A program made the position numbers and the translations under genes. Below the pieces are notes generated by a model. That model saw only the letters and a list, made by a program, of their open reading frames with translations, was not told where the DNA came from and made no database searches. 64,000 nt of DNA. It comes from Acuticoccus mangrovi. GTDB lineage: Bacteria > Pseudomonadota > Alphaproteobacteria > Rhizobiales > Amorphaceae. The DNA lies in contig NZ_JAEKJA010000007.1 of the NCBI RefSeq assembly GCF_016411865.1, positions 248,001 through 312,000 of the forward strand. Reading direction: 5' to 3'. The stretch's first letter is position 1; each line of letters begins with the position of its first letter. Shown in pieces: positions 58,608 through 64,000 of this stretch.

Positions 58608-59156
58608 TCAGGTGGCGTCCTTGCCGCGGCTGATGGCGGCGATGCCGGTGCGGGAGACCTCCACCAGTCCGACCGTCGCCATCAGCGCCACGAAGCGCTC
58701 GATGTCGGTGGTGGCGCCGGTGATCTCGAACACGAAGCTCTCGAGGGTCGCGTCCACCGTGCGGGCGTCGAAGGCCTGGGCGAGGCGGAGCGCCTCGACG
58801 CGGCTCTCGCCGCGGCCCTCCACCTTGACGAGCGCCAGCTCGCGCTCGATCGCGTCGCGCTTGTCGGCGGTGAGGTCGGCGACGCGGTGGACGGGCACCA
58901 GGCGGGCGAGCTGGTTCTTGATCTGATCGATGACCATCGGCGTGCCGGTGGTCACGATGGTGATGCGCGAGAGGCCGCGCGCGTGCTCGGTCTCCGACAC
59001 GGTGAGCGAGTCGATGTTGTAGCCGCGGCCCGAGAACAGGCCGATGACGCGGGCGAGCACGCCCGGCTCGTTGTCGACGAGCACGGAGAGAGTGTGGCGC
59101 TCCTGCGCCGGCTCGGGCGAAAGGGCCGGCGAGACGCCGATCGGTTGTGTGTTCAT
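58608..59156 (-). CDS. ilvH: Acetolactate synthase small (regulatory) subunit
   Basis: The 182-residue regulatory subunit that stimulates IlvB and confers valine feedback inhibition. An N-terminal ACT domain is clear (HTLSVLVDNEPGVLARVIGLFSGRGYNIDSLTVSETE), followed by the second ACT-like domain (IERELALVKVEG...). Its ATG overlaps the stop of the DUF167 gene by four bases (ATGA), so it is translationally coupled to that gene and not directly to ilvB. Confidence 0.95.
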   Translation of the reverse strand: MNTQPIGVSPALSPEPAQERHTLSVLVDNEPGVLARVIGLFSGRGYNIDSLTVSETEHARGLSRITIVTTGTPMVIDQIKNQLARLVPVHRVADLTADKRDAIERELALVKVEGRGESRVEALRLAQAFDARTVDATLESFVFEITGATTDIERFVALMATVGLVEVSRTGIAAISRGKDAT

Positions 59157-59476
59157 GGCTCCACCAATGTTCTGGCACGGCTGGCGAGCGCGCCCGGCTC
59201 GCCGTCGATCCGCACCGTCTTGAGGCGCGAGGTGGAACCGGAGGTGACGGCCACATCGCTTTTCCTGACGCCGAACGCCTTGGCGATCAGCGCTTCGACC
59301 GCCTTGTTGGCGGCTCCCTTGTCGGGCACCGCGCGCACCTTGAGGGCGAGGCGGACGCTGCCGTCGTCGAGGCTGAGCGGCCCTTCGATGCGGTCGGCCG
59401 ACGCCTTGGGCGTCACGCGGACGGCGAGGAGAAGGCCGTCGTCCACGTGCCGCCAGAAGGCGTTGGCGTCCGCCAT
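59153..59476 (-). CDS. DUF167/UPF0235 family protein
   Basis: A 107-residue small protein of the YggU/DUF167 family with the conserved VRVTPKASADRIEG near residue 20 and VPDKGAANKAVEALIAKAFGV in the middle. No function is established; homologues are often encoded beside yggT. Here it lies inside the ilvB-ilvH operon: five bases after ilvB and overlapping ilvH by four. It is in frame and intact, so it is expected to be expressed with acetolactate synthase. Confidence 0.9.
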   Translation of the reverse strand: MADANAFWRHVDDGLLLAVRVTPKASADRIEGPLSLDDGSVRLALKVRAVPDKGAANKAVEALIAKAFGVRKSDVAVTSGSTSRLKTVRIDGEPGALASRARTLVEP

Positions 59477-59481
59477 CGGGC

Positions 59482-61263
59482 TTAGACGAGCGCCTGGCCC
59501 TCGGCCTCGATGGCGTTCTCCACCATCTCCGCCTCGAGGTCGTCACCCGACGCGAGCAGGATCTCGTTGTGCGGCTTGCCCGACGGGATCATCGGGAAGC
59601 AGTTGGTGAGATCGGCGACGCGGCAGTCCATGAGGACGGGGCCGGGGGTTGCGAGCATCTCCTCGATCGCGGCGTCGAGGCGCGAGGGATCGGTGACGCG
59701 CACGCCCTTCGCCCCGTAGGCCTCGGCGAGCTTCACGAAGTCGGGCATCGCCTCGGTGTAGGAGTGCGACAGGCGGTTGCCGTGGTTGAGCTGCTGCCAC
59801 TGGCGCACCATGCCCATGTGCTGGTTGTTCATGATGAACACCTTCACCGGCAGGTCGTACTGCACCGCGGTCGACATCTCCTGGATGTTCATCTGGATCG
59901 ACGCGTCGCCGGCGATGCAGAGGACCAGCGAGCCCGGGTGGGCGATCTGCGCGCCGATGGCGGCGGGCAGGCCGTAGCCCATGGTGCCGAGACCGCCGGA
60001 GGTCATCCAGCGGTTCGGCTTGTCGAAGCCGTAGAACTGGGCCGCCCACATCTGGTGCTGGCCGACGTCGGTGGTGACGTAGACGTCGCGATCCTTGGTG
60101 AGGGCGAACAGGCGCTCGATGGATTCCTGCGGCATGATGGTGGACGGCCGCGTCGTGTAGGCGAGCGACTTCTTGGCCCGCCAGCCGTCGATCTCCTTCC
60201 ACCACGGGGCGAGGCGCTTCTTGTCGTGCGGCCCGCTCTCCGACCACACGCGCACGATGTCCTCGAGCGCGTGGGCGGCGTCGCCGATGATCGGCAGGTC
60301 CACCTTCACGTTCTTGTTGATCGAGGAGGGATCGATGTCGATGTGGATCTTGCGCGAGCCGGGCGAGAAGGCGTCGATACGGCCGGTGATGCGGTCGTCG
60401 AAGCGCGCCCCGATGCAGATCATCAGGTCGCAGCCGTGCATGGCGAGGTTCGACTCGTAGGTGCCGTGCATGCCGAGCATGCCGAGCCACTGCGGGTGGC
60501 TCGCCGGCATCGCGCCGAGGCCCATCAGCGTCGACGTCACCGGGAAGCCGGTGAGATCGGCGAGCTCGCGCATGAGGTGGCTCGCCGCCGGCCCGGAGTT
60601 GATGAGGCCGCCGCCGGTATAGAAGATCGGCCGCGAGGCCGCCTTCATCAGCGCCACGGCCTGACGGATGCCCTCCATCTCGGGCCGCAGGCGGGGCTGA
60701 TAGGTCTTGTGGCGCGCGTTGCGCGGCGGGGCGTAGCGGCCGAGCCCGACCTGCACGTCCTTCGGAATGTCGATGACGACGGGGCCGGGACGGCCGGAGG
60801 TCGCCACGTAGAACGCCTCGAACAGGATGCGGGGCAGCTCGTCGACACTCTTCACCAGCCAGTTGTGCTTGGTGCACGGGCGGGTGATGCCGACCGTGTC
60901 GCACTCCTGGAAGGCGTCGGAGCCGATGAGATGGGTCGGCACCTGGCCGGAAATGCAAATGAGCGGGATCGAATCCATCATCGCATCGGTGAGGGCCGTC
61001 ACCGCGTTGGTGGCGCCGGGGCCGGAGGTGACCAGCATGACGCCGGGGCGGCCGGTGGAGCGGGCATAGCCTTCGGCCATGTGGCCGGCGCCCTGCTCGT
61101 GGCGCGCGAGGACGTGGGTGACGTCGGTCTGCTGGAAGATCTCGTCATAGATCGGGAGCACGGCCCCGCCGGGGTAGCCGAAGATGGTGTCGACGCCGTG
61201 GTCTTTCAGCGCCTCGATGACCATTTGCGCACCGCTCATGCGGCCTGAGTTGCGCTCGTCCAT
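59482..61263 (-). CDS. ilvB: Acetolactate synthase large (catalytic) subunit
   Basis: Catalyses the first common step of valine, leucine and isoleucine synthesis (2-acetolactate and 2-aceto-2-hydroxybutyrate formation) with ThDP, Mg2+ and FAD. The 593-residue product has the cofactor-activating Glu in [15 protein letters not shown] (near residue 55), the FAD-binding middle domain, and the ThDP motif starting GDASIQMN and ending in MNN. The start is ATG at 61263. Upstream lies a leader peptide and attenuator, which predict control by branched-chain amino acid supply. DUF167 and ilvH follow in the operon. Confidence 0.96.
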
Positions 61264-61334
61264 TGTCGTTCTCCGGATCCGCCGTGAGGCGGTCTATTGT
61301 CACCGACCCGCTCGGGGTCTGGCGAGCGGGCAAC

Positions 61335-61408
61335 AAAAAAGGCCCCAAGGGGCCCATGTTCCGCGCATCACCGTTCCCGGGCCTGGTCAACAGGCCCCGG
61401 TGATGCGC
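61335..61408 (-). promoter_or_regulatory. Transcription attenuator of the ilvB operon
   Basis: Two structures follow the leader peptide in the minus-strand RNA. The first is a large hairpin at 61363-61408: an 11-bp stem GCGCATCACCG/CGGTGATGCGC plus a 7-bp GGGCCTG/CAGGCCC stem, with the peptide's UGA at the loop. The second, at 61335-61355, is an intrinsic terminator with GGCCCC-TT-GGGGCC followed by six Ts. The GGGGCC and GGCCC segments of the first hairpin can pair alternatively with the terminator's left arm. This is the layout of translation-coupled attenuation, as at ilvB, ilvGMEDA and leu operons of other bacteria. Confidence 0.88.
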
Positions 61409-61437
61409 TCCGCTACGATAATAAGCCGACGTGCCAT
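61387..61437 (-). CDS. ilvB operon leader peptide
   Basis: A 16-codon reading frame, MARRLIIVAERITGAC, that lies 124 bases upstream of the ilvB start. Codons 5-8 are Leu-Ile-Ile-Val, with a further Ile at codon 12: all three branched-chain amino acids made by the operon are sensed in a row. The stop codon falls in the loop of the first attenuator hairpin. A weak GGAAG lies about 11 bases before the ATG. Ribosome stalling at LIIV under amino-acid shortage would alter folding of the downstream RNA. Confidence 0.85.
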   Translation of the reverse strand: MARRLIIVAERITGAC

Positions 61438-61648
61438 TTCGATGTCGCTTCCGAGTGATCTTCTTCGCGTCTGAGGAAGCCCGGCTATCACGTCTCGCCC
61501 TCGCGTGCAACGACGATCGTCGCCGCAGCGCCGTCGCCGATCTTCGCGGCTGCGACATCGCGGCCGTCGGATTCGCCGACGCACGACTGCAATTGGCGGA
61601 CGGCGTGCGCCATTCTGGTGATGGTGCAACGCAGCGAAGGAACCGCCC

Positions 61649-62221
61649 ATGATTTCTCTCCTCGACAGCCCGTCCGGCTACGGACTCGTGAGCCGCGGCC
61701 TCCATTGGGGGATGGCGCTCGTCATCGCCTGGCAGTTCACGAGTGCGGTTCTGCGCGTCGTCGCATCCGACACGCCGGTGGAGGAGTTCTTCTGGTCGAC
61801 CCACTATTCGGTTGGCTTCACCATCCTGCTGCTCGTGCTGGTGCGGGGACTGTGGGGGCTCGCGAACCTCGCGCGGCGGCCGCGGACGGAGGGGCCGGCG
61901 CTCCAGCGGCGGCTCGCGGGCATCGCCCACCTCGTCCTCTACGGGCTGATGGCGGTGGTGCCGGTGCTCGCGATCGCCCGCGCGGCGGGCAGTGGGCGGG
62001 GCCTTCGCGTCTTCGGCGTGGAGCTCATCGCCGGCGGCGGCGAGCGGGTGCCGCAGCTGATGGCGCCGGCGAACCTCCTGCACGGCAATCTCGGCTGGCT
62101 GCTCTTGGCGCTGATCGCGGGCCACACGCTGATGGCGCTCTATCACGGCCTGTTGCGCGCCGATCCGACGCTCGACCGCATGACCAAGGGCTGGAGCGAC
62201 AAGGGGAGCGCTACCGCCTGA
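61649..62221 (+). CDS. Cytochrome b561-family protein
   Basis: A 190-residue four-helix membrane di-haem cytochrome (bacterial b561/CybB family). Candidate haem-ligand histidines occur in RGLHWGM (helix 1), STHYSVG (helix 2), LHGNLGW and GHTLMALYHG (helices 3-4). Members oxidise quinol, reduce superoxide or accept electrons in the inner membrane. ATG at 61649 overlaps a region rich in purines. The C-terminal residues and stop lie in the first unit of a tandem repeat. It is convergent with miaA. Confidence 0.88.
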   Translation: MISLLDSPSGYGLVSRGLHWGMALVIAWQFTSAVLRVVASDTPVEEFFWSTHYSVGFTILLLVLVRGLWGLANLARRPRTEGPALQRRLAGIAHLVLYGLMAVVPVLAIARAAGSGRGLRVFGVELIAGGGERVPQLMAPANLLHGNLGWLLLALIAGHTLMALYHGLLRADPTLDRMTKGWSDKGSATA

Positions 62222-62322
62222 CCGGCGACAAGGAGGGCACCGTCGCCTGACCGGCGACGAGGAGGGCAACCGTCGCCTGACCGGCGACAAGGAGGGCACT
62301 GCCACCTGACCGGCGGCGAGGG
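62215..62322. repeat. Tandem 29/30-bp repeat, three copies plus a partial
   Basis: Three similar units begin at 62215 (29 bases), 62244 (30 bases) and 62274 (30 bases), and a shorter, diverged fourth ends at 62322. Each unit carries CGCCTGACCGGCGAC; at the junctions GTCGCC-TGACC-GGCGAC forms a hairpin with TGA in the loop. The first unit contains the stop codon of cytochrome b561, and the last abuts the miaA stop. The array could work as a bidirectional 3'-end structure for the two convergent genes. Confidence 0.88.
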
Positions 62323-62323
62323 C

Positions 62324-63202
62324 TCACGGGAAGTCCGGCGCGCGGCGCGGCCAGTCGGGGAAGCGGTTGCGGAACCACGTCTCCTGGCGCTTCGCATATT
62401 GGCGGCTTTCGGCGACGGCGCGGGTGATCGCGGCGTCGCGGTCGAGGCGGCCGGCGGCGTGGGCGGCGAGGGGCGCGACGCCGATCGCCTTCATCACCGG
62501 CCGCGACGGGTCGAGGCCGCGGTCGGCGAGGGCGGCGGCCTCTGCGAGCGCGCCGGCCTCCATCATGGTCTCGAAGCGGGTGGCGATCCGGCGACGCAGG
62601 GCGGCCCGGTCCGGCGCGAGAACGATGCGCTCCACCTCCGGCCCGAGCGGCAGGACGGGGCGCGAGCGCTCGGCGTGGAAGGTGGCGAGGGAGCGCCCGG
62701 TCGCTTCCACCACTTCCAGCGCGCGTACGATGCGTTGGGGGTCGCTGGGGCGAAGCCGGGCGGCCATCACGGGGTCGCGGCGGGCGAGCTCGGCGTGGAG
62801 CGCCTCGGGCGCCTCGCGCGCCTGGCGGGCCCGCCAGTGGGAACGCACCGCCTCGGGCACGGCCGGCACCGGGGCGAGCCCCTCGGTGAGGGCGGCGAAA
62901 TAGAGGCCGGTGCCGCCGACGAGGATCGGCAGGCGTCCCGCCCCCTGGACCTCGGCGATGGTGGCCGCGACATCGGCGAGCCACTGGGCGACCGAATAGG
63001 CGGCCGCCCCGTCGACATGGCCATAGAGCGCGTGCGGCACGCTCGCCTCCTCGTCCGCGTCGGGGCGGGCGGTGAGGATGCGCAGATCGCGATAGACCTG
63101 CATCGCATCGGCGTTGATGACGGTCCCGCCGCGCTCTTTCGCGAGGGCGAGGGCCAATCCCGACTTGCCCGAAGCCGTCGGACCGGCGATGAGGACGGCC
63201 AT
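62324..63202 (-). CDS. miaA: tRNA dimethylallyltransferase MiaA
   Basis: Adds an isopentenyl group to A37 of tRNAs that read UNN codons. The 292-residue product has the P-loop GPTASGKS at residues 7-14, the family segment [42 protein letters not shown] and a C-terminal [13 protein letters not shown]. The start ATG at 63202 overlaps, on the opposite strand, the start of serB; an in-frame GTG 15 bases upstream (63217) is an alternative that would lie inside serB. Confidence 0.94.
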
Positions 63203-64000
63203 GGATCTCGTCGTCACACTCGTCGCCCCCGTCTCGCTCGACCCGTCCCGCGTGGTCCCCTTCGTCCGCGAACTCGGCGCCTTGCGCGCCGAGCGGCTCG
63301 GCACGCGCGCCGCGGACGTCTTCCTCTGCGCGGACCTCGCCGCAACGCGCGCCGCCGTCAAGGCGCTCGCCGGGGACGATGCGCTCGACGCCCTCGTCCA
63401 GCCGCTCGCGCACCGGACGAAGCGCCTCGTGGTGAGCGACATGGACTCCACCATGATCGAGCAGGAATGCATCGACGAGCTCGCCGGGGTCCATGGGCTG
63501 AAGCCGCGGGTCGCGGCGATCACCGAGCGGGCGATGCGGGGCGAGCTCGATTTCGCCGCGGCGCTGACGGAGCGGGTGGGGCTCTTGAAGGGCATCCCCG
63601 AGGCCTCGATCGATGAGCTGTTGGCGCGCGTCATCACCCCGTCGCCGGGGGCGGCGACACTCGCGGCGACCTGCCGCGCGCACGGCGTGCGCACGGTGCT
63701 GGTGTCGGGCGGGTTCACGGCGTTCGCCGAGCCGGTGGCCGCGCGCCTCGGCATCGACGTCGCCTTCGCCAACCGCCTCATCGCGGCCGACGGCGTGCTC
63801 ACCGGCGAGGTCGCGCATCCGATCCTCGGCGCCGACGCCAAGCGCGAACGCCTGCTCGCCGAGGCGGACGCGCTCGGCGTGTCGCTCGACGACACCATGG
63901 CGATCGGCGACGGCGCCAACGACCTCGCGATGATCGAAAAGGCTGGGCTCGGCCTCGCCTACAAGGCGAAGCCGAAGGTTGCTGCTGCCGCCGACGGGGC
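63201..64000 (+). CDS. serB: Phosphoserine phosphatase, 3' end cut by the window
   Basis: Catalyses the last step of serine synthesis, hydrolysis of O-phosphoserine. The visible 266 residues include an N-terminal ACT-like region, the HAD nucleophile motif [13 protein letters not shown] (Asp80, Asp82), the motif [11 protein letters not shown] and the motif [12 protein letters not shown]. The frame is open to the last base; the usual length is about 295 residues, so some 30 residues are missing. GAGG lies six bases upstream of the ATG, inside the miaA coding sequence. Divergence from miaA is a conserved neighbourhood in rhizobia. Confidence 0.94.

Follow-up and report, generated by a model that had tools for sequence, protein, structure and literature searches.

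The 64,000-nt stretch of Acuticoccus mangrovi DNA analysed here (the window) raises the question of whether the short region in front of ilvB controls this gene by transcription attenuation and, if so, by what arrangement of ribosome, hairpins, and terminator. The best answer, to which we assign a probability of roughly 0.78, is that the region is a leader-peptide transcription attenuator, through which ilvB expression would follow how much Leu-, Ile-, and Val-tRNA is charged. The features needed for the argument are the following.

61387..61437, minus strand: leader peptide open reading frame, MARRLIIVAERITGAC, 16 codons, with ATG at 61437 and the stop codon TGA at 61389-61387
61414..61425, minus strand: regulatory codons CTT ATT ATC GTA (Leu Ile Ile Val)
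61363..61408, minus strand: hairpin S1, 18 pairs, apical loop containing the stop codon (fold prediction and covariation)
61335..61355, minus strand: intrinsic terminator, a hairpin at 61355-61340 with six T at 61340-61335 (sequence and covariation)
61324..61441, minus strand: match to Rfam RF02502 (Atu_C8), 44.8 bits (gathering score 50), E 5.1e-8
59482..61263, minus strand: ilvB, acetolactate synthase large subunit (NF006581, 1085.6 bits, cut-off 974)
58608..59171, minus strand: coding stretch of the acetolactate synthase small subunit, 3' of ilvB, start approximate

Three elements described in the first-pass annotation, namely a leader peptide with Leu-Ile-Ile-Val codons upstream of ilvB, an 18-bp bulged hairpin whose loop contains the stop codon, and a GC-rich terminator with six Ts on the ilvB strand, were all recovered from the sequence, the hairpin at 61408-61363. 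On the minus strand, the leader reads ATG GCA CGT CGG CTT ATT ATC GTA GCG GAG CGC ATC ACC GGG GCC TGT TGA. S1 is built of an 11-bp lower stem, a five-nucleotide bulge on the 3' side (GGGAA, 61378-61374), and a 7-bp upper stem. The terminator hairpin has six pairs and a loop of four, and its T run ends 72 nt before the ilvB ATG (61263). As judged from sequence, an intrinsic terminator thus lies between the leader and the first gene, as an attenuator requires. The segment from 61437 to 61334 folds at −49.9 kcal/mol (z −2.86, with 3 of 200 shuffles equally good), and two terminator-like sites, including this one, are present in 501 nt, compared with 0.3 in shuffled sequence. The score of the ilvB product above the NF006581 cut-off identifies it as the biosynthetic large subunit; since the operon encodes both subunits of acetolactate synthase, it makes the amino acids that the leader would sense.

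The leader frame stays open further upstream, as part of an 87-aa open reading frame from 61650. The start of the 16-aa peptide is favoured because of ATG spacing in congeners: in five of seven, an ATG lies exactly four codons ahead of the Ile/Leu/Val (ILV) run, the same as in the window, while one of the remaining two has it five codons ahead and the other (L027) has no ATG nearer than eight codons. A motif search found no 4-nt Shine-Dalgarno match before the leader of the window, and such a match was absent in 46 of the 84 leaders of the non-redundant set defined below.

Some neighbouring features were also recorded. A DUF167/YggU gene (PF02594, E 6e-23; 59153-59476, minus strand) lies between ilvB and the small-subunit gene. 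On the other side, a divergent cytochrome b561 gene (PF01292; 61649-62221, plus strand) separates ilvB from the IPP transferase gene miaA (IPPT match within 62324-63250), and a 29-bp tandem repeat of 3.4 copies occupies 62215-62315, between the cytochrome b561 gene and miaA. Several relatives that have no attenuator carry an apparent MiaA C-terminus, recognized by eye, immediately 5' of ilvB. Between the terminator and the ilvB start (61328-61265, minus strand), two more hairpins can be seen by eye; one of them, CCGCC/GGCGG, is listed on the opposite strand by the terminator-site search.

Conservation of the element was studied in 178 ilvB upstream regions, 173 of them distinct, consisting of 98 regions from the order to which the window belongs, read as Hyphomicrobiales (Rhizobiales), which came from 97 of 101 genomes, one of them contributing two copies, and of the 80 best named matches. 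To be counted, a region had to contain a GC hairpin followed by a T run and, with its stop codon 11-48 nt 5' of this hairpin, an open reading frame of 8-35 codons with at least four Ile, Leu, or Val among five codons. The ILV run proved to be conserved: such a leader and terminator were found in 125 of the 173 ilvB regions, but in only 2 of 865 dinucleotide-shuffled sequences and in none of the 173 reverse complements. The other 48 regions included 37 below even three ILV codons in five. From 136 regions with at least three such codons in five, three (L069, L157, and L174) were dropped as MiaA C-termini by eye, leaving 133, of which 131 are distinct. An alignment of 91 leaders (A1) was prepared after removal of near-duplicates and of five leaders that were short or odd, and a non-redundant set comprised 84 of the 131 leaders; the window's own row (L022) is outside this set, and its values are given separately. 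One genome (G031) has two ilvB copies (L001 and L097), and both are preceded by an ILV leader and a terminator of their own.

Outside the order, 60 ilvB regions were sampled from 138 ilvB places (one of these regions, L250, is only 130 bases long), and four of them had a leader by a looser criterion, in which the stop codon may lie 0-110 nt before the hairpin. One of the four, L228, appears by eye to be a MiaA C-terminus and was rejected as an artefact. Similar ILV leaders were seen in the alphaproteobacterial regions L252 (MTGVVVILGNTRMGR), L271 (MHRLVVIVGKWRMGR), and L231 (MNRTLVLIPWSLSEWS). A search of 289 genomes of the class with a further model (R1) found at least four, the window's own included; the search scored at most 14 candidates per genome and is no census.

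A hairpin S1 enclosing the stop codon was predicted in 131 of 131 leaders, a count made without a shuffle control, and at least three more unpaired bases were present on its 3' side in 72 of 84. In the 91 aligned leaders, the S1 lower stem and the terminator core taken together had 92.5% of cells paired, compared with 79.8% after shuffling, and 162 double-change cells, compared with 59.3. Their covariation score was 0.447, against 0.219 in shuffled alignments, none of 500 of which reached it, and 0.025-0.112 in slid versions. The comparison of relatives that the first-pass annotation had proposed as a check thus came out in its favour, with regard both to the ILV codons and to covariation of S1 and the terminator. 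When the pairing of segments from the same leader was compared with that of swapped segments, only three strong helices emerged, the S1 lower stem (t −21.8), the S1 upper stem (t −11.3), and the terminator (t −9.7). The next-best pair, the 5' arm of upper S1 with the region before ilvB, reached t −2.5 among up to 66 pairs and was taken as chance.

The codons of the run point to sensing of all three amino acids. Ile, Leu, and Val are all present within the run in 77 of 84 leaders, and the run ends in Val in 66 of 84. The choice of codons was compared with that in the first 500 codons of ilvB from 26 named loci. GTA accounts for 96 of 138 Val codons in the leaders but for only 23 of 1003 in the ilvB genes; ATT for 65 of 108 Ile codons and 120 of 844, respectively; and CTG, used for 554 of 988 Leu codons in ilvB genes, for 9 of 112 in the leaders. 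Two of the four regulatory codons of the window, CTT and GTA, are absent from its own ilvB (0 of 45 Leu and 0 of 38 Val codons). We read this bias toward rare codons as evidence for codon-based sensing; together with the recurrence of the run in relatives, it fits the short open reading frame, with codons for the product amino acids, that is expected of an attenuator.

The window copy matches the Atu_C8 model over its full length (1-122) and misses the curated gathering score. Atu_C8 was found in 55 of 101 genomes (own included), in 15 of them above the gathering score, and in 0 of 14 control genomes; all ten genomes of the window's family, its own included, have a match, and the congeners G002, G003, and G007 are above the gathering score. 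For each of the 56 matches, the aligned start of an ilvB homologue follows downstream on the strand of the match, at a distance of 29-164 nt (median 71); one genome has two matches and two ilvB homologues. The Rfam family is therefore, in these genomes, an ilvB leader. Rfam matches to Mcr7, isrG, P18, mir-598, Cupriavidus-1, S6-S18-Chlorobi, and sR53 were far below thresholds and were taken as chance.

The first-pass annotation had also counted an alternative GGGGCC/GGCCCC pairing among the features that fit attenuation. Taken as an antiterminator, this helix is not conserved: over 91 sequences it was 52.2% paired, compared with 52.9% in shuffled alignments, and 371 of 500 shuffles reached its covariation score. 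Since a negative result of this kind needs a yardstick, seven E. coli leaders (trp, thr, leu, his, ilv, ivb, and phe) and eight trpE leaders from the same order were used as controls. The latter came from 21 trpE loci (L186-L206), of which 14 have a leader with at least two adjacent Trp codons, four of these being without a terminator. Of the ten leaders tested (mean z −1.47), L187 and L206 were set aside as misplaced; their terminators have −3.6 and −0.9 kcal/mol, and their z values are +1.3 and +1.4. In the window's genome and in six congeners (L199-L205), the 450 nt preceding trpE contained no leader with two adjacent Trp codons; such a leader is present in two sister-genus genomes and in several other families.

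The duplex between the terminator arm and the upstream leader had z values of −1.1 to −4.6 in the seven E. coli leaders and −1.4 to −2.9 in the eight trpE leaders kept, while the average in 131 ilvB leaders was +0.77. We also computed the free energy of sequestering the terminator 5' arm when the ribosome is stalled and the other arm does not yet exist; these energies come from thermodynamic models, with pseudoknots and kinetics outside them. The mean in 84 ilvB leaders was −3.2 kcal/mol, compared with −3.45 when arms were swapped between species, and the window gave −3.5. The controls averaged −10.6 (E. coli, −6.7 to −13.8, n = 7) and −14.3 (trpE, −10.6 to −19.0, n = 8). The outcome did not change when the ribosome edge was placed 3 nt further upstream or downstream than assumed. 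When the ribosome was moved along the leader, sequestration in the controls was strongest with the edge 6 to 12 nt beyond the last codon, the position expected of a stalled ribosome, while the ilvB class stayed flat (−1.0 to −3.3); 5 of 84 ilvB leaders reached the weakest E. coli control at any ribosome position. The longest contiguous helix with the terminator arm was the same for own and swapped sequences (4.54 and 4.53). Two other measures separated the classes poorly. Ensemble pairing probabilities were 0.44-0.82 in E. coli and 0.44 on average in the ilvB class (32% of 131 leaders above 0.5), and the ratio of best sequestration to terminator energy had an ilvB median of 0.35 (0.10-0.97, n = 83), overlapping with control values of 0.71 (trpE) and 0.67 (E. 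coli, 0.25-0.83). Tests able to detect a helix that competes for the terminator arm in both sets of controls thus did not reveal one shared across the ilvB class. As far as computed energies go, the ilvB leaders as a class show no antiterminator helix of the classical trp type, exclusive with the terminator.

The position of the ribosome relative to S1 was evaluated next to these energies. For this purpose, the ribosome was assumed to cover 9 nt beyond the A-site codon. A ribosome stalled at the last regulatory codon masks a median of 24% of S1 pairs, and 0% at the first; for the largest hairpin before the terminator, the figures are 100% and 71% in trpE leaders and 74% and 32% in E. coli. The masking of hairpin 1 by the stalled ribosome that the classical scheme calls for is therefore not seen in ilvB leaders. 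In the 84 leaders, the ribosome edge at the ILV codons falls on average close to the start of S1 (mean −0.2 nt, sd 4.7). Stalling at these codons would thus leave S1 mostly folded and completion of the leader would open it, opposite to the order of events in the trp scheme. The gap between S1 and the terminator is 0-9 nt, and the stop codon is on average 29.6 nt (22-44) from the terminator. In the available part of PMC4824070, an E. coli ribosome that ends closer than about 27 nt to a terminator is reported to repress it; the distance found here fits termination on a completed leader.

We propose the following mechanism. RNA polymerase would transcribe the leader, and the first ribosome would translate it. 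When branched-chain amino acids are plentiful, this ribosome would reach the stop codon in the S1 loop and unwind S1, allowing the terminator, 31 nt past the stop codon, to fold and give a short RNA of the Rfam Atu_C8 type. When they are scarce, the ribosome would stall on CTT, ATT, ATC, or GTA and its front would come to rest at the base of S1, which would stay mostly folded, and the terminator would fail. Termination and the response to branched-chain amino acids in vivo are what we infer from these features. No class-wide antiterminator helix came out of the tests; our guess is that the terminator might be disabled in the stalled state by the ribosome that abuts folded S1, through steric effects or through coupling. 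That the attenuator of this order works without an antiterminator, with a ribosome parked at folded S1 blocking the terminator, a ribosome at the stop codon melting S1 and letting the terminator act, and Atu_C8 as the terminated product, is accordingly put forward as a tentative possibility.

A classical trp-type attenuator, in which a ribosome stalled over the 5' arm of hairpin 1 would leave another segment free to pair with the terminator 5' arm (GGGGCC/GGCCCC or GGCCC/GGGCC), could draw on the window itself, where GGGGCCUG:GGGCCCC, taken in isolation, is a strong duplex (−16.2 kcal/mol, z −1.3). A sequestration energy of −8.4 is also reached in the window, but only when the ribosome edge lies 30 nt beyond the ILV run, near the stop codon. 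In the stalled state, 6 of 84 leaders come near the weakest E. coli value in a rounded list, the strongest being L173 (−12.1, with doubtful hairpin limits) and L058 (−9.5), and L271, one of the three leaders from outside the order, is strongly sequestered (−8.0 at the stalled position, −15.8 at best), so other orders may use a classical antiterminator. Against this stand the class mean, which is that of swapped arms and far from E. coli and trpE, the flat profile over ribosome positions where the controls peak, the lack of conservation of GGGGCC/GGCCCC, and the small fraction of S1 masked. Moreover, the 3' arm of S1 pairs with the terminator 5' arm more weakly than swapped arms do (t +4.5; some other segment pairs are also t-positive). 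We consider classical control of the class unlikely. The fit to ribosome-mediated attenuation seen in the first-pass annotation therefore stands as far as leader, codons, hairpins, position, and conservation are concerned, and is not supported with regard to the antiterminator pairing.

If no alternative helix operates, ribosome–RNA polymerase coupling alone might control the terminator, as for pyrBI, which PMC4824070, in the part available, discusses as strict coupling; only the distance between ribosome and polymerase would then count, and the 29.6 nt found here is near the E. coli reach. An uncharged tRNA would, however, make the ribosome lag and increase termination, which is the wrong sign of feedback unless S1 brings the ribosome close. 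A path-length measure of ribosome proximity does not show this: the values were 9.1 (stalled) and 10.6 (at the stop codon) in ilvB leaders, so that the stalled state is not set apart, compared with 10.2 in both states for trpE and 16.5 and 9.0 for E. coli. S1 covariation would also need another reason, and we regard coupling alone as quite unlikely. It is less probable still that the leader serves mainly to yield a trans-acting small RNA, with ilvB attenuation secondary. Rfam does type Atu_C8 as "Gene; sRNA", and the trp leader rnTrpL of S. meliloti is described in the accessible part of PMC10117765 as a dual-function sRNA, but every Atu_C8 match lies upstream of ilvB, and neither a conserved ILV run nor rare codons are needed by an RNA acting in trans. 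There is room for a second role of the Atu_C8-type RNA besides attenuation.

The leader-peptide attenuator favoured here links an Rfam sRNA family to control of the first common enzyme of branched-chain amino acid synthesis across an order. Should the lack of an antiterminator be true, these leaders would provide a natural and widespread case of an intrinsic terminator controlled by a stalled ribosome without a competing helix, and effects of ribosome, hairpin, and polymerase on termination would become directly testable.

Judged by its sequence, the element is a conserved branched-chain amino acid attenuator, and descriptions or predictions of this kind exist for Alphaproteobacteria. One is the ilv leader of C. 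crescentus (PMC4117421, in part, citing Tarleton 1994), which is presented as an attenuator and resembles the present one in belonging to an alphaproteobacterial acetolactate synthase operon and in having tandem Ile/Val codons and a rho-independent terminator; unlike the ilvB class studied here, it has a proposed antiterminator. A predicted cis-regulatory element before ilvIH of S. meliloti, a member of the Rhizobiales, is reported in the portion of PMC2573895 available, which cites Vitreschak 2004 on ilvIH attenuators of Proteobacteria. Atu_C8 itself ("Rhizobiales sRNA") shares the position before ilvB and both S1 and the terminator; it differs in being typed as an sRNA gene rather than a leader, with the window under its gathering score. 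Among the papers listed in literature searches, titles and opening lines of abstracts contained no discussion of Atu_C8 and, Tarleton 1994 and Vitreschak 2004 aside, no alphaproteobacterial ilv attenuator described without an antiterminator.

More distant systems show related features in the parts of the papers available. A review notes putative leader peptides and terminators before branched-chain amino acid genes across Gram-negative species (PMC6123439). In Actinobacteria, ilvB leaders with terminators have been noted, with the mode of regulation unclear, and changes of leader codons had no effect in S. coelicolor (PMC1262725). A hairpin formed during a ribosome pause at control codons, as S1 would be, is the proposed antiterminator of C. 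glutamicum ilvBNC (CUU and GUA; PMC11857589) and of M. tuberculosis ilvB1 (LVVI with GUA; PMC13236596). There, the antiterminator shares bases with the terminator or excludes it, whereas S1 ends before the terminator begins. The E. coli leaders, finally, have in common with the ilvB class the leader peptide, regulatory codons, and terminator, and differ from it in that their terminator arm is sequestered at the stalled-ribosome position, which in the ilvB class is on the whole not the case. By computation calibrated on these controls, the attenuator before ilvB thus appears to depart from the classical scheme.
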